A stretch of 52,614 nt of DNA from an uncultured Bacilli bacterium. GTDB taxonomy: Bacteria > Bacillota_I > Bacilli_A > RF39 > UBA660. A program made the position numbers and the translations under genes. Below, one piece after another: positions 15,589-52,614 of this stretch (position 1 is the first letter of the stretch; the number at the start of each line of letters is the position of its first letter). The notes under the pieces are model-generated. The model ran no database searches, had not been told where the DNA came from, and worked only from the letters and a program-made list of their open reading frames with translations. The stretch is taken from contig CALVSO010000010.1 of the NCBI GenBank assembly GCA_944359055.1, positions 1 through 52,614 on the forward strand. Reading direction: 5' to 3'.

Positions 15589-15601
15589 ATTTTACTCCTT
15601 T

Positions 15602-15656
15602 CGGCTTATTTTCGGTTTATTTTCGGCTTATTTTCGGCTTATTTTCGGCTTATTTT
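15602..15656. repeat. five tandem 11-bp repeats upstream of ksgA
   Basis: CGGCTTATTTT occurs five times head to tail (starts 15602, 15613, 15624, 15635, 15646), with one T/C change in the second copy. The array fills the gap between the Fic stop codon, which lies in the rightmost unit, and the ksgA ribosome-binding site. It is a minisatellite that can change length by slippage. Confidence 0.95.
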
Positions 15657-22879: not shown

Positions 22880-23713
22880 CTACTTATGATATTCTCTATA
22901 CACTTCATTTTTATTTAGTTTTCGTTCATGAGCAACTTTTTTTATTGCTTCTTTTGAATCTAATCCGTTTTCTATATATAAATTAACGTGATCTAAGATT
23001 GACAGCTTACTAAAATCATTTACATCTTTATTACCTTCAACAACTATTACAAATTCGCCTTTTAACACGTCTAATTCATTAATTACATCACTTATGGTAC
23101 CTCTATATATCTCTTCAAATTTCTTTGTTATTTCCCGGGAAATTGAGATATTTCTATTTCCCAATATTTTTAACATATCATTTAAAGTATCAATTAAACG
23201 ATGAGGTGACTCATAAAATATTAAAGTATATTTATTATTTTTTAATTCTTCTAATTCTTTTCTTCTTTTACTAGATTTACTATTTAAAAAGCCAAAAAAA
23301 GTAAAAGGTTGTGCATCAATATTAGAAGTTATTAAAGCGGATACAAAAGCAGTAGCTCCTGGTATTGATACCACATTATAATTATTATTAATAGCTGCTT
23401 TTGCCAAATAATACCCTGGATCACTTATAATAGGTGTTCCTCTATCAGTAACTAATCCTACATCTTGTCCATCATTTAAATATTTTAATAATTTATCTAT
23501 ATTATCTTTTTCATTATATTGATGAGAAGATATTAATTTATTTTTAATATTATAATAACTTAATAATTGATTAGTTACTCTTGTATCTTCTGAAAATATA
23601 ATTGATACATTCTTTAATACTTTAATAGCTCTATAAGTAATATCTTCCATATTACCAATGGGGGTTGCTATTAAATATAAAGTTGGTTTATTATCATAAC
23701 TTTTTTGCGACAT
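22880..23713 (-). CDS. rsmI: 16S rRNA (cytidine1402-2'-O)-methyltransferase RsmI
   Basis: The protein has 277 residues: TLYLIATPIGNMEDITYRAIKVL, SEDTR, VTDRGTPIISDPGYYLA, SIPGATAFVSAL and FYESPHR, all canonical for RsmI. It methylates the ribose of C1402 in the 30S decoding centre. The ATG at 23713 follows GAGGTG; a GTG three codons earlier lies in the site. In Bacillus it follows trmN6(yabB)-yazA; here a rhuM gene sits in between. A perfect ATTTCCCGGGAAAT palindrome lies inside the gene. Confidence 0.96.
   Translation of the reverse strand: MSQKSYDNKPTLYLIATPIGNMEDITYRAIKVLKNVSIIFSEDTRVTNQLLSYYNIKNKLISSHQYNEKDNIDKLLKYLNDGQDVGLVTDRGTPIISDPGYYLAKAAINNNYNVVSIPGATAFVSALITSNIDAQPFTFFGFLNSKSSKRRKELEELKNNKYTLIFYESPHRLIDTLNDMLKILGNRNISISREITKKFEEIYRGTISDVINELDVLKGEFVIVVEGNKDVNDFSKLSILDHVNLYIENGLDSKEAIKKVAHERKLNKNEVYREYHK
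23130..23143. promoter_or_regulatory. perfect Noc-type palindrome inside rsmI
   Basis: ATTTCCCGGGAAAT is a perfect 14-bp palindrome identical to the known B. subtilis Noc binding sequence (NBS). It is inside coding sequence, as many NBS are. A Noc-like protein is encoded at 51316 onward, so binding is plausible; it has not been shown. Confidence 0.65.
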
Positions 23714-23714
23714 T

Positions 23715-24740
23715 TTAATCACCTCTATTCAAATCTTCCTCTAATAATAAATCAAAATCAGATTTATATAATTTATCTTGTTTTATTCTATATTTTTCAA
23801 ATTCAGTCAATGCTTTATCACAAGCAATTTCATGAGATATTTCTCCTGCATCTTTTAATATATCTCTATCATCAGCTAATAAAAATTTATCAATTCTATT
23901 TGACCAATCTTCCATTGTCATTGGTATATGTCCTTTAGCTCTTGCTTCGGCTAAATCTAAAAAAGCAGATACAATTCGTCCTAATTGTTCTAATTCTTCT
24001 TTAGATAAATAGTTTTTAGCAACAACCACATCTGTTTCTAATATTTTACCATTAGGCGAATTTTTCCATGAAGTAAGTCCCATATGTTTCTTATCTGAAT
24101 TTGCTCGATTATAAATAATTTCTGCAGCTGTTTGATGAGATACAGCAAAATGCATTTTATTTTGAACTTTTTTAAAAAACTTAATTGTAGTAGGTGATTT
24201 TCTATCATAATCAATACTTGTTGCATATATATCAGTAATTTTTTGATAAAATCTTCTTTCAGATAATCTTATTTCTCTTATTTCAGCAAGAACAGTTTCA
24301 AAATAATCTTCATCAAAAAATACTCCATTTTCCATTCTTTTTTTGTCTAATAAATATCCTTTTTTAGAAAATACTTTTAAAACATATACTGCCCATCTTC
24401 TAAATTGAATAGCTCTATCCGAATTAATTCTAAATCCTAAAGAAATTGCAACATCAAGATTATAATATCTAACCATTCTCTTTACTTCTCTACTACCTTC
24501 TTTTTGAACTGTCAAATAATTTTTGACAGTTAAATTTTCTTCTAATTCAAATGTTTCAAAAATATTTTTTAAATGATAACTAACATCTTGCTTACTTGTA
24601 TCATAAAGTTCAGTCATAGCGCTTTGTGATAACCATAAATCACCATCTTCAAAACGTACAGAAACACCTTTTTGTCCTTTTTGGCTTTCGAATATTAAAA
24701 ATTCAGCACTACTACTTCTTATAATTAAATCTTTTGCCAT
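23715..24740 (-). CDS. RhuM family (virulence-associated) protein
   Basis: The protein has 341 residues of the RhuM family: an N-terminal domain with DGDLWLSQSAMTELYDTSKQDVSYHLKNIFE, then REVKRMVRYYNLDVAISLGFRINSDRAIQFRRWA, and a C-terminal cell-filamentation-like region (HFAVSHQTAAEIIYNRANSDKKHMGL). Family members are found in pathogenicity islands and beside restriction or toxin genes; biochemical function is unknown. The ATG follows AAGGTG. It fits between trmN6 and rsmI with 1-bp gaps, so it uses the operon's transcript. It is absent from this place in Bacillus. Confidence 0.88.
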   Translation of the reverse strand: MAKDLIIRSSSAEFLIFESQKGQKGVSVRFEDGDLWLSQSAMTELYDTSKQDVSYHLKNIFETFELEENLTVKNYLTVQKEGSREVKRMVRYYNLDVAISLGFRINSDRAIQFRRWAVYVLKVFSKKGYLLDKKRMENGVFFDEDYFETVLAEIREIRLSERRFYQKITDIYATSIDYDRKSPTTIKFFKKVQNKMHFAVSHQTAAEIIYNRANSDKKHMGLTSWKNSPNGKILETDVVVAKNYLSKEELEQLGRIVSAFLDLAEARAKGHIPMTMEDWSNRIDKFLLADDRDILKDAGEISHEIACDKALTEFEKYRIKQDKLYKSDFDLLLEEDLNRGD

Positions 24741-28332: not shown

Positions 28333-30051
28333 TTAATTATACTCTACTATATCTCCAAACAATGATTTTATATCATCTTCTGGTTCGTTATTTATTTTGC
28401 TTAATATTTCTTCAATTGAATATATTTCATCTTGATATTCAAATTTTTGTTTTTTACTATTAAAATTATCTTTAATAATATTCCATTTATCAATATCAAC
28501 AGCGACAACTTTATATGGTTTATTAAAAACTTCTTTAATTAAATTTTGAATATTAATTATATTTTCATTAAATAAATTTGATAAGTGTTCAGTTTTATAA
28601 GTGAATATAGCATATTCATCACTTACTGCTTTTAATTCGCCATCTAATACCATTGTAGCATAGACATTATATTTTTCATCCATTACATAATCCATAACTC
28701 TACTTAAATCATTTTTCAACTCAATAGTATCCTTTTTTGAAAATTTTGAAAGTGTATTATTTACTCTTATGTCAACAAATTTATTAAGTTTTTCTAACAA
28801 TTCATTATCCACAGTTTTTTTAGTTATTTCCCTGGAAATATTTTTATTATCCACAGTATTACTAGTTTCAACTTCTACTTTTATTTCCTGGGTAATTTTT
28901 TCTGGTTGTTTTATTTCTTGGGTAATAATATTTGATTCGATACTAGGTTTCTCAATTATTACTTTTTCAATAACTTTTTCAGTTGATATTTGTTTATTAG
29001 AATTATTCATCATTTTTATAAAAGCAAGTTCTAAAATCATTTTAGGATTAGAAAACTTTTTCATATCCAATAGTGATTCATTTAGAATACTAATATAATT
29101 TAACATACCATCTGTACTAAAATGATTATTTATTTCCTGGTAAATATTTTTATCTTCCAAAGTAGTTGTATTAGCTAAAATAGCATTTCTTAAAAATAAT
29201 ATTATTTCTTCCGTTATTTTAATTATACTTTTACCTTTATTACTGTAATCAGTTATTGTGTTAATAACCGCAGTTAAATTATTATTAACTACATTTTTCA
29301 TTAAATTAAACACATTTTCCTGGGAAATAGTACCGTTTACTTCATGAACATCATTTAAAGTAACAGTGTCAACAGCATATGATACTACTTGATCTAATAT
29401 GCCAATGGCATCTCTTAATCCACCATCGCCTAATCTGGCTATTTCCCAAATAGCATCGTCTTCTATTCTAATATTTTCATTATCGCAAATATATTTTAAA
29501 CGATTATAAATATTTTCCACAGGAATTTTTTTTAAATCGAATCTTTGGCATCTTGATAATATTGTTATTGGAACTTTATGCGGATCAGTTGTAGCTAAAA
29601 TAAATATAACATGAGATGGTGGTTCTTCTAATGTTTTTAATAAAGCATTAAAAGCACCAATCGTCAACATATGAACTTCGTCGATAATATATATCTTATA
29701 TTTTCCTAATGATGGGACCAAATTAACCTTATTATTTATTTCCCTTATTTCGTCAACCCCATTATTAGATGCAGCATCCATTTCAATAACATCCATGTTT
29801 TGCTCGTTACTTTGTGTACAACAAACACACTTATTGCATGGTATTCCTTCTACACAATCTTTACAATTTACTAGTTTAGCAAAGATTTTAGCAATAGATG
29901 TTTTACCACAACCACGAGGACCAGCAAATAAATAAGCATGACTTATTTTATCGTTTATAACAGCATTTTTTAATGTCCTGATTATTACTTCTTGCCCTGC
30001 TACATCATCAAATGTTTTAGGTCGATATTTTCTATATAAAGCTTGATACAT
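28333..30051 (-). CDS. dnaX: DNA polymerase III subunits gamma/tau
   Basis: The protein has 572 residues: MYQALYRKYRPKTFDDVAGQ, Walker A GPRGCGKTS, a four-Cys zinc site, DEVHML and SRCQRFDL. Residues ~350-450 are a low-complexity linker with repeated ITQEIK/ISREITKK, and the tail is the tau-type C-terminal domain. It forms the clamp loader motor. The ATG at 30051 follows GAGGTG. The linker DNA contains two perfect DnaA boxes (28805-28813, 28847-28855) and NBS-like palindromes. Confidence 0.95.
   Translation of the reverse strand: MYQALYRKYRPKTFDDVAGQEVIIRTLKNAVINDKISHAYLFAGPRGCGKTSIAKIFAKLVNCKDCVEGIPCNKCVCCTQSNEQNMDVIEMDAASNNGVDEIREINNKVNLVPSLGKYKIYIIDEVHMLTIGAFNALLKTLEEPPSHVIFILATTDPHKVPITILSRCQRFDLKKIPVENIYNRLKYICDNENIRIEDDAIWEIARLGDGGLRDAIGILDQVVSYAVDTVTLNDVHEVNGTISQENVFNLMKNVVNNNLTAVINTITDYSNKGKSIIKITEEIILFLRNAILANTTTLEDKNIYQEINNHFSTDGMLNYISILNESLLDMKKFSNPKMILELAFIKMMNNSNKQISTEKVIEKVIIEKPSIESNIITQEIKQPEKITQEIKVEVETSNTVDNKNISREITKKTVDNELLEKLNKFVDIRVNNTLSKFSKKDTIELKNDLSRVMDYVMDEKYNVYATMVLDGELKAVSDEYAIFTYKTEHLSNLFNENIINIQNLIKEVFNKPYKVVAVDIDKWNIIKDNFNSKKQKFEYQDEIYSIEEILSKINNEPEDDIKSLFGDIVEYN
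28826..29328. repeat. cluster of NBS-like sites within dnaX
   Basis: Five near-palindromes resembling ATTTCCCGGGAAAT lie here: ATTTCCCTGGAAAT (28826-28839), ATTTCCTGGGTAAT (28883), ATTTCTTGGGTAAT (28913), ATTTCCTGGTAAAT (29132) and TTTTCCTGGGAAAT (29315). They encode short recurring peptides (SREIT, TQEIK). They may be Noc sites carried in a tolerant linker, or by-products of a peptide repeat. Confidence 0.45.
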
Positions 30052-30627: not shown

Positions 30628-30867
30628 ATATAATATACAATATTATTATTATAAAATCAATTGTTTTATTTAATTTTTTTATTTTAAAATGTTTTATGTA
30701 TTAAATACATATATATTTTTCCAATTAATCATATGTGTTTCAATGACATTTTCCATTTTCAAATTTATAAATCAGAAATAATATATCTTTAGAAATTTAA
30801 AATTATATTAAAATATTTATCTAATTTTTAATATTGGTTTTATTATCCACAATAATTTAAACAATAA
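30628..30867. other. AT-rich spacer with one DnaA box
   Basis: No coding frame is seen here. It has the SRP RNA promoter region at its left end (TATATT/TATTAT elements) and a perfect DnaA box TTATCCACA at 30843-30851, 17 bp before the first parS-type site. Otherwise it is AT-rich sequence with long A and T runs. Confidence 0.6.
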
Positions 30868-31548
30868 GTTTCACGTGAAACATTGATATACTTTATTACT
30901 TATAGTTCCACGTGAAACATTATGTTATTTTATTATTCATAGTTACACGTGAAACATTGGTTTATTCTATTAATATAGTTACACGTGAAACATTGGTTTA
31001 TTCTATTATTATAGTTTCACGTGAAACATTGAGTTATTTTATTATTTATAGTTCCACGTGAAACATTGAGCTTATTCTATTATTTATAGTTTCACGTGAA
31101 ACATTGAGTTATTTTATTATTTATAGTTTCACGTGAAACATTGAATTATTCTTTTATTTATAGTTCCACGTGAAACATTCAGTTATTTTATTATTTATAG
31201 TTTCACGTGAAACATTGAATTGTTTTATTATTTATAGTTTCACGTGAAACATTAGGTTATTTTGTTATTCATAGTTCCACGTGAAACATTGAGTTTATTT
31301 TGTTACTTATAGTTCCACGTGAAACATTGAGTTTATTTTATTATTCATAGTTCCACGTGAAACATTATGTTATTTTATTATTCATAGTTTCACGTGAAAC
31401 ATTGATTTATTCTATTATTTATAGTTTCACGTGAAACATTGATATACTTTATTACTTATAGTTTCACGTGAAACATTGATATACTTTATTACTTATAGTT
31501 TCACGTGAAACATTGGGTTGTTATATTACTTATAGTTCCACGTGAAAC
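30868..31548. repeat. tandem array of 19 parS-type sites
   Basis: GTTNCACGTGAAAC occurs 19 times in the same orientation. Starts: 30868, 30905, 30942, 30978, 31014, 31051, 31089, 31126, 31163, 31200, 31237, 31274, 31312, 31350, 31387, 31424, 31461, 31498, 31535. Ten copies are perfect palindromes (N=T); seven have C and two have A. The period is 36-38 bp, mostly 37, with 22-24 bp of related AT-rich spacer (often ATTGAGTTATTTTATTATTT). The core equals the Bacillus parS TGTTNCACGTGAAACA except for its first base. Chromosomal ParB (Spo0J) should load here. Confidence 0.93.
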
Positions 31549-49141: not shown

Positions 49142-50857
49142 ATGTATGAAAAACACAAAGGATTTACTTTAATTGAATTACTAGCAGTTATTATTATATT
49201 AGCCATAGTAGCACTTATTGCAACACCCATTATATTAGATGTGGTGGAAGATGCAAGAATATCAGCAGGAAGATCAGAAGTAAATATGATATTAAGTGGA
49301 ATAAATAATTATTGTGCTACTGAAGATGTAAAATATCAGTTAGATAATAGTTATACAAAAATATGTACAACAGATATGGACATAAATGATGTACCAACAA
49401 TGGTTAATTTAGGAAATGCTGATATTAAAAGTATTAAATATAATGGAACTAAATTAACTGAATTAGTTATAGAAAGTAATAACCACAAATTTACATTATG
49501 TCCAAGTGGAACATTTGCTATGGATAATGAAGAATGTGATGGTGAAGTAGCACAATCGGGTAATTTAATATCAACATTATTAGGACAATATCAAGAAGAA
49601 AATGAAACAGGATTAGTAAAAGATAGTACAAATCCTAATTTATATTATTATACTGGGACTAATGAAGAAGTTGGTAATAACTTTTTATGGTATGGAGGAC
49701 ATCAATGGAGAGTATTAGAATTTGATATAGAAGCAAAAACATTAACACTAATAACACAACAACCATTAACATCAATTCAACCAGCAAGTGCAGTATGGAC
49801 AACAAAAGAAGAATATGAATCAAGTTATATAAAAACTTGGTTAAATGACTATTTTTGGAATAGTTTAAATAGTAGTATACAGGCAACTATTCAAGATTCA
49901 ACATTTAATATAGGGATATATACTGATGTAGATGAAATAACAACAACACAAAAAGTAGGATTATTAGATGAAGAGCAATATAAAAGAGCAGGAATGGCTG
50001 ATTCTTTCTTAGATATAAAAGATTATTTTTGGTTAGGAAATAGAGAAAGTTCGTCTGACGTTCGCCTCGTGCACTACAGTGGCTACCTCGACGACATTGG
50101 TCCTACGAATGCGTATGGCGTGCGTGCAGTAATAAAAATTTCTGATATAACCATCACCGGAGGGGATGGTACTCTTGCGAGCAATTATCAAGTAGCAAAT
50201 AAAGCGACAAATACAGATAATGTTCAAGTAGGAGAATATATCAATGTACCATATAGTGGAAATGATAATGCTTGTGGAAGCGATAATATGTGTACATTTA
50301 GAGTGGTAAGTAAAGATGATGATAGTATCAAAGTAGTACTAAATGGATTACTTCCAGATACAAGTATATACGGAAGTTCATCAACAATAGGTACAAGTCA
50401 TACAATATATACACCACTGAATACATTTGCTGAAGGAATAAGTGACACATATCGATATACCGGAACTAAAACATTCTATATAGGAAATTATCCATATGTA
50501 TCAGGAATAGGTCAAAATTATAAAGATGTTCTAAATGAAATGTTGGAAGCAAGTATAGGATTACCAACAGTAGGAGAAATGTTCAGTGGAAACGACATTG
50601 ATTTAAGTACATCAAGTACTAAAACGTTTGTAGATGTAGGTACAATAGAAAACCCAACAGTATCAATTTACTATTGGACAATGAATAGATATAATTCGTC
50701 TAACATTCGCAACGTGAACTACGATGGCCTCCTCAACAGCAATAGTCCTACGTATGCGGCTGGTGTGCGTGCAGTTATATATCTGAAGTCAGGGACTTCA
50801 GCCATAACCTTTGCTGGAGGCGAAGGCACTCCAAACTCACCGTATATCTTGCAATAA
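49142..50857 (+). CDS. type IV pilin-like protein with two DGR-type variable modules
   Basis: The protein has 571 residues. The N-terminus is a class III prepilin signal: HKG then FTLIELLAVIIILAIVAL, with cleavage expected after Gly7 and Glu at +5. Two similar lectin-like modules (DUF6273-type) follow: WRVLEFDIEAKTLTLIT...YIKTWLNDYFWN, and CTFRVVSKDDDSIKVVL.... Each ends in an 82-bp variable repeat (residues ~303-330 and ~518-545) reading ...VR.V...G....N...GVRAVI, then GG.GT. The repeats are about 57% G+C in an AT-rich gene. I infer a surface-displayed binding protein whose two contact faces are diversified by retrohoming. Confidence 0.85.
   Translation: MYEKHKGFTLIELLAVIIILAIVALIATPIILDVVEDARISAGRSEVNMILSGINNYCATEDVKYQLDNSYTKICTTDMDINDVPTMVNLGNADIKSIKYNGTKLTELVIESNNHKFTLCPSGTFAMDNEECDGEVAQSGNLISTLLGQYQEENETGLVKDSTNPNLYYYTGTNEEVGNNFLWYGGHQWRVLEFDIEAKTLTLITQQPLTSIQPASAVWTTKEEYESSYIKTWLNDYFWNSLNSSIQATIQDSTFNIGIYTDVDEITTTQKVGLLDEEQYKRAGMADSFLDIKDYFWLGNRESSSDVRLVHYSGYLDDIGPTNAYGVRAVIKISDITITGGDGTLASNYQVANKATNTDNVQVGEYINVPYSGNDNACGSDNMCTFRVVSKDDDSIKVVLNGLLPDTSIYGSSSTIGTSHTIYTPLNTFAEGISDTYRYTGTKTFYIGNYPYVSGIGQNYKDVLNEMLEASIGLPTVGEMFSGNDIDLSTSSTKTFVDVGTIENPTVSIYYWTMNRYNSSNIRNVNYDGLLNSNSPTYAAGVRAVIYLKSGTSAITFAGGEGTPNSPYILQ
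50048..50129 (+). repeat. variable repeat 1 (VR1)
   Basis: This 82-bp repeat matches VR2 and the non-coding copy at 50952-51033 with no gaps. By my count it differs from the non-coding copy at 18 positions, 11 of them where that copy has A. Codons at the changed sites are His, Tyr, Ser, Tyr, Leu, Asp, Asp, Ile, Gly and Tyr, against mostly Asn in the A-rich copy. Confidence 0.85.
50693..50774 (+). repeat. variable repeat 2 (VR2)
   Basis: The second 82-bp copy, at the C-terminal module. By my count it differs from VR1 at 19 positions, and in 18 of these at least one of the three copies has A. The remaining one is C/T at position 72. It keeps invariant segments such as AGTCCTACG and GTGCGTGCAG. 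Confidence 0.85.
50783..50801 (+). repeat. perfect hairpin 8 bp after VR2
   Basis: CTGAAGTC and GACTTCAG are an exact 8-bp inverted repeat around AGG. A short hairpin or cruciform just downstream of the VR is a known element needed for efficient target use in the Bordetella phage DGR. A weaker ACCATC/GATGGT dyad lies at the same relative place after VR1 (about 50148-50169). Confidence 0.6.
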
Positions 50858-50906: not shown

Positions 50907-50951
50907 CAATAAAAAATAGCAGGTATGTCAAATTTGGGTGTAAGGCTATAT

Positions 50952-51033
50952 AGTTCGTCTAACGTTCGTATCGTGAACAACAATGGTAATGCCAACAACA
51001 ATAGTCCTACGAATGCGAACGGCGTTCGTGCAG
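50952..51033 (+). repeat. non-coding A-rich copy, candidate DGR template repeat
   Basis: An 82-bp copy of the VRs lies 94 bp after the pilin-like stop, outside any convincing gene. It has 25 A against 14 in VR1 and 20 in VR2, concentrated in AAC/AAT codons at the variable sites, the hallmark of a template repeat. Against this, seven non-A positions are shared by VR1 and VR2 but differ here, and at positions 2, 13 and 20 VR2 has the A. So it may be a diverged template or a third, stranded variable copy. Confidence 0.65.
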
Positions 51034-51236
51034 ATTCCTTTTAAACTGAGATTTATATGACTAAGGTTGTATAAAGAGAAACATTAGGAAACAATTCTTA
51101 TTCCCTAGGTATAGAACCTAAAAATATTAGTGATAAATTAACTGTTTAAAAGTGGTTTAGTAGAGTAAAATCGAAAAATCGCTTTTTTGTTTTTAAAAAT
51201 ATCTATGATTAATAATAATTTTTATTAAAAATAAAT
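51034..51236. other. gene-free stretch after the A-rich repeat
   Basis: No reverse transcriptase, Avd-like gene or other frame is seen. A weak CGA/TCG hairpin followed by TTTTTT (about 51168-51188) could end a transcript covering the A-rich repeat, so a template RNA of ~250-300 nt is possible. The rest is A/T-rich. Confidence 0.5.
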
Positions 51237-51281
51237 TATTTCCCAAAAACTATTGCATTATTTCCCAAAATATAGTATTAT
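51237..51281 (+). promoter_or_regulatory. noc promoter with two TATTTCCCAA motifs
   Basis: TTGCAT (51253-51258), a 17-nt spacer and TATTAT (51276-51281) form the promoter. One TATTTCCCAA lies just upstream (51237-51246); the other is exactly between -35 and -10 (51259-51268). A protein bound there would block RNA polymerase. ATTTCCC is half of the Noc palindrome, so autorepression is a natural hypothesis. Confidence 0.65.
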
Positions 51282-51315
51282 TATTTTATAAAAGAATTAG
51301 GAAGGGGTTTTTTCT

Positions 51316-52614
51316 GTGCAAAACGAAAGAAAAGTTGTTGAATTGAATCTATCAGATGTATTACCAAATAGATTCCAACCCCGTATTAAATTTGATGAAA
51401 ATGCTATCAATGAATTAGCTTTATCAATTCAAAAATATGGAGTAATTCAACCAATAGTAGTTAGACAAATTGGTAATAAATATGAAATAATAGCTGGTGA
51501 ACGTAGGTATAAAGCAAGCAAAGTTGCTGGTAAACAGACTATACCTGCAATTATATCAGAATTAAATGATAAAGATAGTGTTGAAATAGCATTAATAGAA
51601 AATGTTCAAAGAGAAGATTTGACTCCAATTGAAAAAGCTGTATCTTATAAAAAAATATTAGATATGGGATATATTAATCAAGAAGAATTAGCTAAAAAAG
51701 TTGGTAAATCACAATCAGCTATAGCTAACACATTAAGACTTCTTAACTTATCAGATGATGTTCAAGAAGCATTATTAGAAAATAAGATATCTGAAAGACA
51801 TGCTAGATCATTATTAAAAATAAAAAATGAGAAACAACAAGTACAAATGTTAAATAGAATAATAAACGAAAGATTAACTGTTAGAAAAACAGATGAGGAG
51901 ATTGATAAAATGCAAAATGAAAATAATCAAATTATAAATGAAGTACCAGAAGAAATTGTTCAAATTCCTGATACGGCAATGAGTGCACCAGGATTTATGG
52001 ATATAGATGCAATAGAAAATAGTGCTAAGGATATTATTCAACCACAAAAACCAGTAGCTAATATTGATATGTTAATGAAATCAAATGTTGAACCAACACC
52101 GGTTCCTGAAACTATCCCTACAAGTAAGTTTTTCAATTTATTTGATGAAAATGAATCATCATCAAATGCTGAAGATGATGGAAGTCAATTTAAGTTGGAA
52201 AATTCATTTAATAATATGTCTTTGCATAATGATTTTTTATCAAATAATAATGAAAATAATAATGTGACACCAACATTTGAAATACCAACAAATCCAGTAG
52301 AACCACAACCAGTACAACCAACATTTGAAATACCAACAAATCCAATAGAACAACAACCAGTACAACCAACATTTGAAATACCAACAAATCCAGTAGAACC
52401 ACAACCAGCACAACCAACATTTGAAATACCAACAAATCCAGTAGAACCACAACCAGTACAACCAACATTTGAAATACCAGCAAATCCGGTAGAACCACAA
52501 CCAGTACAACCAACATTTGAAATACCAACAAATCCAATAGAACCACAACCAGTACAACCAACATTTGAAATACCAGCAAATCCGGTAGAACCACAACCAG
52601 TACAACAAACAATT
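51316..52614 (+). CDS. noc: Noc/ParB-family CTPase DNA-binding protein, 3' truncated by window edge
   Basis: At least 433 residues. ParB N-domain (LPNRFQPR, IAGERRYKASKVAG, ALIENVQREDLTPIEKA) gives the CTP-binding motifs. The DNA-binding helix-turn-helix reads GKSQSAIANTLRLLNL. The Q-S-x-IAN and ERHARSLL patterns fit Noc (GQSTIAN, ERHARAL) better than Spo0J (SRPHIAN, MGHGRTL). It lies after rsmG as noc does. It lacks the N-terminal membrane-binding helix of B. subtilis Noc, starting almost at the ParB fold. After residue ~200 comes a long acidic and Pro/Gln-rich tail. The GTG start follows GGAAGGGG. Confidence 0.88.
   Translation, partial: MQNERKVVELNLSDVLPNRFQPRIKFDENAINELALSIQKYGVIQPIVVRQIGNKYEIIAGERRYKASKVAGKQTIPAIISELNDKDSVEIALIENVQREDLTPIEKAVSYKKILDMGYINQEELAKKVGKSQSAIANTLRLLNLSDDVQEALLENKISERHARSLLKIKNEKQQVQMLNRIINERLTVRKTDEEIDKMQNENNQIINEVPEEIVQIPDTAMSAPGFMDIDAIENSAKDIIQPQKPVANIDMLMKSNVEPTPVPETIPTSKFFNLFDENESSSNAEDDGSQFKLENSFNNMSLHNDFLSNNNENNNVTPTFEIPTNPVEPQPVQPTFEIPTNPIEQQPVQPTFEIPTNPVEPQPAQPTFEIPTNPVEPQPVQPTFEIPANPVEPQPVQPTFEIPTNPIEPQPVQPTFEIPANPVEPQPVQQTI
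52270..52614 (+). repeat. in-frame 48-bp tandem repeats in the noc tail
   Basis: Seven full 48-bp units start at 52270, 52318, 52366, 52414, 52462, 52510 and 52558; an eighth is cut by the edge. Each codes for a 16-residue unit of the form TFEIPTNPVEPQPVQP with V/I, T/A and P/Q changes. The protein repeat is extended and proline-rich. Confidence 0.95.

Follow-up and report, generated by a model that had tools for sequence, protein, structure and literature searches.

A Noc variant with a long internal linker, no N-terminal membrane helix and predicted boxes concentrated in the origin region

The window, that is, the whole 52,614-nt stretch of DNA analysed here, is one complete contig (C10) of a 1.34 Mb genome and ends inside a gene of the ParB/Noc type. 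This noc-variant gene (51316–52614, plus strand) starts with GTG, encodes 433 residues up to the contig end and follows a pilin-like ORF and three genes that we take to be mnmE (45124), mnmG (46464) and rsmG (48334), in this order; the position near rsmG and the origin region is that of canonical Noc. The missing 3′ part lies at positions 1–482 of contig C2 (G000:C2:1-482), whose first 77 bases equal the last 77 of the window, exactly and in frame, and which opens with the same repeat in which the window ends. By arithmetic on this overlap, the product has at least 567 residues, and additional repeat copies may have collapsed at the junction. The gene 3′ of the noc end on C2 is presumably uvrB; the start of this UvrB-like gene was found downstream of noc in 5 of 8 complete genus relatives, and the patterns used gave no match in the other three stretches.

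Other features of the window deserve a brief description. The pilin-like gene (MYEKHKGFTLIELLAVIIILAIVALIATP, 49142–50857) separates rsmG from noc here, and in several genus members the end of rsmG directly precedes noc without it. A 112-nt stretch occurs in three copies (50023–50134, 50668–50779 and 50927–51038, the latter two 74% and 65% identical to the first), two inside this ORF and one downstream of it. In the core, the second copy differs from the first at 9 of 27 A positions vs 14 of 63 others, and the third at 12 of 27 vs 13 of 63; we presume a resemblance to the variable and template repeats of a diversity-generating retroelement. Finally, 5.3 copies of the 11-mer TTTCGGCTTAT (15599–15656, 95% matches) lie between two ORFs and touch the end of one.

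The first-pass annotation had described a Noc-like protein that starts almost at the ParB fold and lacks the N-terminal amphipathic helix. This description holds: the GTG at 51316 is preceded by a ribosome-binding-site-like AGGAAGGGG (51299–51307, plus strand), the ParB_N domain begins at residue 6, and, since a TAG stop stands in frame at 51298–51300, 18 nt (six codons) before the GTG, there is neither an upstream start nor an added N-terminal helix. An upstream start supplying the usual helix is hence ruled out for the window. GTG or ATG starts with similar upstream sequence were seen in the 17 genus noc loci that we read. For the wider comparison we collected 112 distinct sequences from 126 loci, the window's own included (2 loci gave no such ORF), by requiring PNR[FYN]QPR and de-duplicating on 130 residues; this set consists mostly of best matches to the genus Noc and is not random, and 16 of its members come from named contigs with no family given, six of which equal a family genome over that stretch. 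One of the underlying searches matched 191 of 193 genomes, a figure that includes plain ParB matches and is not a Noc count. When starts were chosen by the quality of their ribosome-binding site, the predicted start fell 14–21 residues before PNR-QPR in 112/112 sequences. Furthermore, 20 held-out loci gave 19 ORFs, 18 of them complete; their predicted starts fall in the same range in 19/19, and in each the farthest start codon is at most 21 residues upstream of PNR-QPR.

A mis-called start, a frameshift or an assembly error could also produce such a gene model, considering that the contig ends in a repeat, that 9 of the 112 ORFs run off a contig end and that 13 have an in-frame upstream start adding at least 8 residues. 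Yet several of these 13 extensions read YFPKYS or YFPSYS, as a translated promoter stretch containing TATTTCCC would, the C10/C2 overlap is exact, and 103 complete relatives as well as the 18 complete held-out ORFs show a similar start, linker and ending. Because the relatives share all three, we regard this explanation as refuted and leave it next to no probability.

Loss of the helix is not unique to the window's family, since 12 of 30 class-level Noc loci inspected by eye also have an N-terminus that is not hydrophobic; it is hydrophobic in 17 (MFNIF, MNIF or MGLF type) and unclear in one. Section 6 of the B. subtilis study describes the N-terminal motif as highly conserved, with an amphipathic helix predicted in all Noc homologues examined there (PMC4331003). 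One class-level Noc (L204) begins MALFNRKDKEE in a 681-residue open frame that is lengthened behind the Noc domains, the added part ending in GFWNLFK; it is a different way of extending Noc. Given the absent N-terminal amphipathic helix, it follows, as had been proposed from the window, that tethering, if any, must differ from that of B. subtilis.

The encoded protein carries a Pfam ParB_N CTP-binding domain (51331–51609, plus strand, residues 6–98), for which relatives match Noc structures, with the boxes GERRYKAS (51496–51519) and ENVQRED (51598–51618), followed by the DNA-binding domain HTH_ParB (51613–51915, plus strand, residues 100–200). The best NCBIfam model for the incomplete ORF is TIGR04285 (nucleoid_noc) at 271 bits, below the cut-off of 315; four full-length relatives also stay below it with 289–297 bits, and the genome's own ParB reaches 233 bits. 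On contig C2 the frame (L006) ends in KAAVPNIRVALNTIRECQNTLEKYGFMVDVEEIDFEDSYQVIFKIEK, a match to the last part of the Noc model; its residues 101–159 match positions 197–255 of TIGR04285 (E 1.5e-5), the Noc C-terminal domain. In AlphaFold models of two relatives, a low-confidence linker connects the folded ParB part with a C-terminal domain of the alpha-beta-beta type. The claim of more than 230 extra residues is borne out in number, as 233 remain in the window after HTH_ParB, but not in position: they are not C-terminal. Since the usual Noc end is present on C2, the apparent tail is a linker between the DNA-binding and the dimerisation domains. A terminal domain at the 3′ end of the gene, raised in the first-pass annotation, is indeed there; the other suggestion, a terminal amphipathic helix behind the repeats, was rejected, as the protein ends in the Noc C-terminal domain.

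The base-reading residues in the window are Q, T, N and R (Q..T..N..R), including the equivalents of the Noc-type Q173 and R201. Both Q and R are found in 69 of the 70 relatives that could be parsed by pattern (42 of the 112 were unparsed), the remaining one reading RKNG. The window has T179 and N184 and is without the permissive lysine at either position; both lysines are missing in 16 of the 70 parsed sequences, with K179 present in the remaining 54. Noc-box binding by a ParB scaffold from Caulobacter is reported to need these lysines (PMC7383237). Within 51703–51813, T179 and N184 of the genus replace the usual Noc lysines even though the box in rsmI is conserved, and another residue may compensate. 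The ParA-binding motif LG[KR]GL is absent from the 433 residues encoded in the window; the genome has three other ParB_N genes, with a ParA–ParB pair at C2:29428-31075, away from noc. Altogether, the predicted protein gives good support to an architecture and a DNA recognition of the Noc type.

The linker, taken to begin at a fixed position behind the helix-turn-helix and to exclude the last 50 residues, spans 72–533 residues in the 103 complete relatives (median 270), and several hundred residues of it are probably disordered. In the window it contains an array of 16-residue Pro/Gln repeats (52269–52611, plus strand; 7.1 copies of 48 nt, 94% matches) that goes on in C2, in agreement with the seven or more copies counted earlier. 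Repeat units of the genus measure 15–20 residues, the unit itself differing between species. Arrays scoring at least 350 were detected in 13 of 16 genus genomes, one of the others having a weak array and two none, all three being cut by contig ends; the scan covered 16 of the 17 genus loci, L032 ending before the linker. The suggestion that the repeat is expandable is supported at species level only, as the comparison used one genome per species. Complete noc ORFs, present in 8 of the 17 loci, encode 533–629 residues, and the others reach contig ends. All 18 genus genomes gave a search match and 17 a Noc start; in G009 (68% complete) the best match is ParB, and noc is suggested only by a fragment, a 134-residue frame that matches the linker.

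Short motifs recur within the linker. We chose the patterns by inspecting the 112 linkers and then applied them to the 19 held-out ones, where the rates were lower but still clear. The first motif of the window, APGFMDIDAIENSAKDI (51985–52035, plus strand), fits the pattern I..(.)A.DI, found in 62/112 linkers (shuffled mean 0.7) and 8/19 held-out ones (0.08). The second, NIDMLMK (52060–52080, plus strand), is of the D-x-D-x-LL type (50/112, shuffled mean 1.3; held-out 5/19, 0.26). The third, TSKFFNLFDEN (52120–52152, plus strand), contains [KR]FF, which occurs in 77/112 linkers (shuffled mean 3.0, largest 8) and 9/19 held-out ones (mean 0.32, largest 3), and which is missing from 35 and 10, respectively. 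Around KFF, the commonest context is G or N before it and N after it, then two hydrophobic residues and acids. We treat KFF as a candidate binding motif.

KFF could be a relocated membrane anchor. In such a case the protein would be a normal nucleoid-occlusion Noc whose anchor moved from the N-terminus into the linker, and origin-proximal boxes would suffice in a genome of ~1 Mb. The anchor of B. subtilis Noc includes R7, F8 and F9 according to section 6 and a figure legend of PMC4331003, a core that resembles [KR]FF; N-termini such as MFNIF and MNIF in some class-level outgroups fit as well. SepF of the genus begins MNLKKWFSTDEND, a similar aromatic-then-acidic pattern, in the 3 loci, out of 18, that passed the filter used, and L033 has GHHGLFGLFGKKKEE late in its linker. 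However, KFF is weakly amphipathic and acidic in its flanks, the N that follows FF in 52 of the 77 linkers looks like part of a protein-binding motif, and the boxes are not scattered round the chromosome. As a clear amphipathic helix, KFF was not convincing: its 11-mer ranks first by hydrophobic moment in only 10/77 linkers (3.6 expected), and the AlphaFold models of two relatives leave the motif unstructured. Owing to these two results and the acidic flank, a membrane role of KFF is weakly supported, and we consider a relocated anchor rather unlikely.

The placement of predicted boxes bears more on the function of this Noc than the repeat does. In the window, a perfect Noc box ATTTCCCGGGAAAT lies at 23130–23143 inside rsmI (22880–23722, minus strand), and four Noc-box-like sites lie within dnaX (28826–29328), the one at 28826 with 1 mismatch and those at 28883, 29132 and 29315 with 2. 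Between tadA and gyrA stand 19 parS-like palindromes (TTTCACGTGAAA, 0–1 mismatch; 30867–31548), ~37 bp apart. The box codons in rsmI, TCC CGG GAA, are invariant in 10/10 genus genes that were read; each of the other 8 invariant Arg columns uses more than one codon, and CGG accounts for 1 of 286 Arg codons in 22 ORFs of the window, this one being that of the rsmI box. As 50 of 169 invariant rsmI columns also show a single codon, the argument for a constraint at the DNA level rests on the rare CGG and TCC. A match to ATTTCCTAGGAAAT, seen at the rsmG end in many members of the genus, was discounted, as it probably reflects coding similarity (KFPRKY).

Among the matches listed for the genus, 12 of 13 genomes have exactly one perfect box, and 21 of 25 boxes with 0–1 mismatch lie on contigs that, in our own reading, carry rsmI, dnaX or parS; the remaining four are on contigs not tied to the origin (G002:C13, G006:C46, G009:C36 and G012:C53). 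Tandem parS-like matches to TTYCACGTGRAA occur in 17 of the 18 genus genomes, 3 to 26 in each, and none was found in G016; their spacing differs by species in the rows listed, e.g. 28, 35 or 37 bp. In the window's genus the boxes in rsmI and dnaX stand apart from the parS array and are not interleaved with it.

In nine family genomes, picked for few contigs, 22/22 boxes (0–1 mismatch, 1–4 per genome) lie within 25 kb of noc, the farthest at 24,516 bp; allowing 2 mismatches adds 12 matches, one of them within 25 kb, and a reversed control pattern gives 13 matches in all. By comparison, 1/29 boxes of eight class-level genomes (reversed control, 2 matches) lies within 25 kb of noc, where distance is to noc and not to the origin; the single near box is in G285, whose other box is ~35 kb away. 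Furthermore, in 20 further family genomes, chosen only because a long contig carried noc on its plus strand, boxes and parS both occur within the 20 kb examined in 19; the exception, G171, has neither in that stretch. These genomes hold 43 boxes vs 0 reversed-control matches (parS control, 1), and 21 of the 43 have a parS within 200 bp, in five cases, all from G126, at 28–29 bp start to start. Several genera show box-to-parS spacings of 24–37 bp, again counted from start to start. In L210, L211 and L212, parS and boxes are interleaved, alternating in L210 with a period of ~62 bp. With the patterns used, which would miss weak boxes or boxes of divergent sequence elsewhere, the chromosome-wide spread of canonical Noc boxes (terminus excepted) was found neither in the nine family genomes nor in the window's genus.

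Boxes are also met at the gene itself. What is presumably the noc promoter (51236–51270, plus strand) contains two direct copies of TTATTTCCCAAAA, each half a Noc box, at a distance of 22 bp; judged by eye, they flank the -35-like element; the window has 6 matches to TTATTTCCCAAAA at up to 1 mismatch (shuffles mean 0.8), and only the promoter pair is exact. Of 111 loci, 75 have TTTCCC or GGGAAA in the 200 bp upstream of noc, 61 of them at least twice (raw counts), and 11 have a box with 0–1 mismatch there. Autoregulation of noc via the half boxes is hence plausible from the promoter sequence. A protein acting as no more than a local transcriptional regulator of origin-region genes and its own promoter, by way of a KorB-like sliding clamp, would account for these promoter sites, yet the boxes of the window's genus sit inside the coding sequences of rsmI and dnaX, and many of those in other genera are near parS; we deem such a role improbable.

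Altogether, the sequences show this architecture and its family-wide spread, linker motifs that recur, and boxes that cluster in the origin region, about half of them near parS. This strongly suggests that Noc acts at the origin near ParB. Our preferred reading, to which we assign a probability of roughly 0.55, is that of a Noc variant that acts together with ParB in a composite centromere at the origin, with the linker tethering the origin complex. In this mechanism, the protein, a ParB paralogue that combines a CTP-binding domain with a helix-turn-helix that reads Noc boxes and the Noc C-terminal domain and is devoid of the N-terminal membrane helix, would load as CTP-bound clamps at the few predicted boxes and slide over origin-proximal DNA. 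Together with ParB on parS, these clamps would form a composite origin complex. The long linkers would project from the clamp ring, and their short motifs, foremost [GN][KR]FFN, may fasten the origin either to the membrane or to a protein of division or segregation; the repeats would set the length of the spacer. The more far-reaching proposal, that Noc of this family is now part of the centromere, with Noc and ParB clamps side by side, linkers tethering the complex and chromosome-wide nucleoid occlusion replaced, falls somewhat short of an even chance in our estimate.

A second origin adaptor, for segregation or replication control, would use the same sites in another manner: the linker motifs would bind protein (ParA, SMC, SepF, FtsZ or a replication protein) and make no membrane contact. 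The recurrence of specific residues in several separate linker motifs and the boxes near or between parS sites speak for it, as does the control of replication initiation by S. aureus Noc that is on record (PMC5540599). The partners named are candidates, and on balance we take this adaptor to be possible but doubtful.

Noc serves as the textbook case of a ParB copy that acquired a membrane helix together with chromosome-wide sites and so times division. If the composite-centromere reading is true, a nucleoid-occlusion factor can turn into part of the origin complex: across a large lineage, it would have kept its DNA code while losing the helix, acquiring a linker with motifs and gathering its boxes in the region of parS. 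The neighbouring boxes and parS sites make a cooperation between ParB and Noc clamps testable. In the literature that we consulted, titles and abstract beginnings mention neither boxes next to parS nor a linker of this kind for any Noc; phase separation of Noc is the subject of one of these papers (PMC9606368).

The closest known system is Noc of Bacillus subtilis and Geobacillus (TIGR04285; PDB 7nfu, 7ng0, 7ol9 and 6y93). In common with it, the protein described here has a CTP-binding ParB fold, a reading helix of the Q173/R201 type, the Noc C-terminal domain, no LG[KR]GL, ATTTCCCGGGAAAT boxes in its genome and a gene that follows what are presumably mnmE, mnmG and rsmG. Unlike it, the family protein is without the N-terminal amphipathic helix, has a linker of 72–533 residues before the C-terminal domain, scores below the TIGR04285 cut-off and has its boxes near noc and in the origin region. 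We call it a Noc variant because it departs from the canonical form in helix, permissive lysines, score and site distribution. S. aureus Noc shares the Noc box and has a recorded link to replication initiation (PMC5540599), yet its 41 ChIP loci contrast with the 1–4 near-perfect predicted boxes per family genome, all within 25 kb of noc. The restriction of sites to the origin region is, like the CTP clamp fold, rather a property of chromosomal ParB/Spo0J with parS. The genome's own ParA–ParB pair (L001) differs in having, by eye, R/G-type specificity residues and an LGRGL motif, neither of which is present in the noc product. KorB of plasmid RK2, a CTP-clamp relative for which a long-range regulatory role is reported (PMC11790492), is only distantly related to the family Noc in sequence and in fold ranking.
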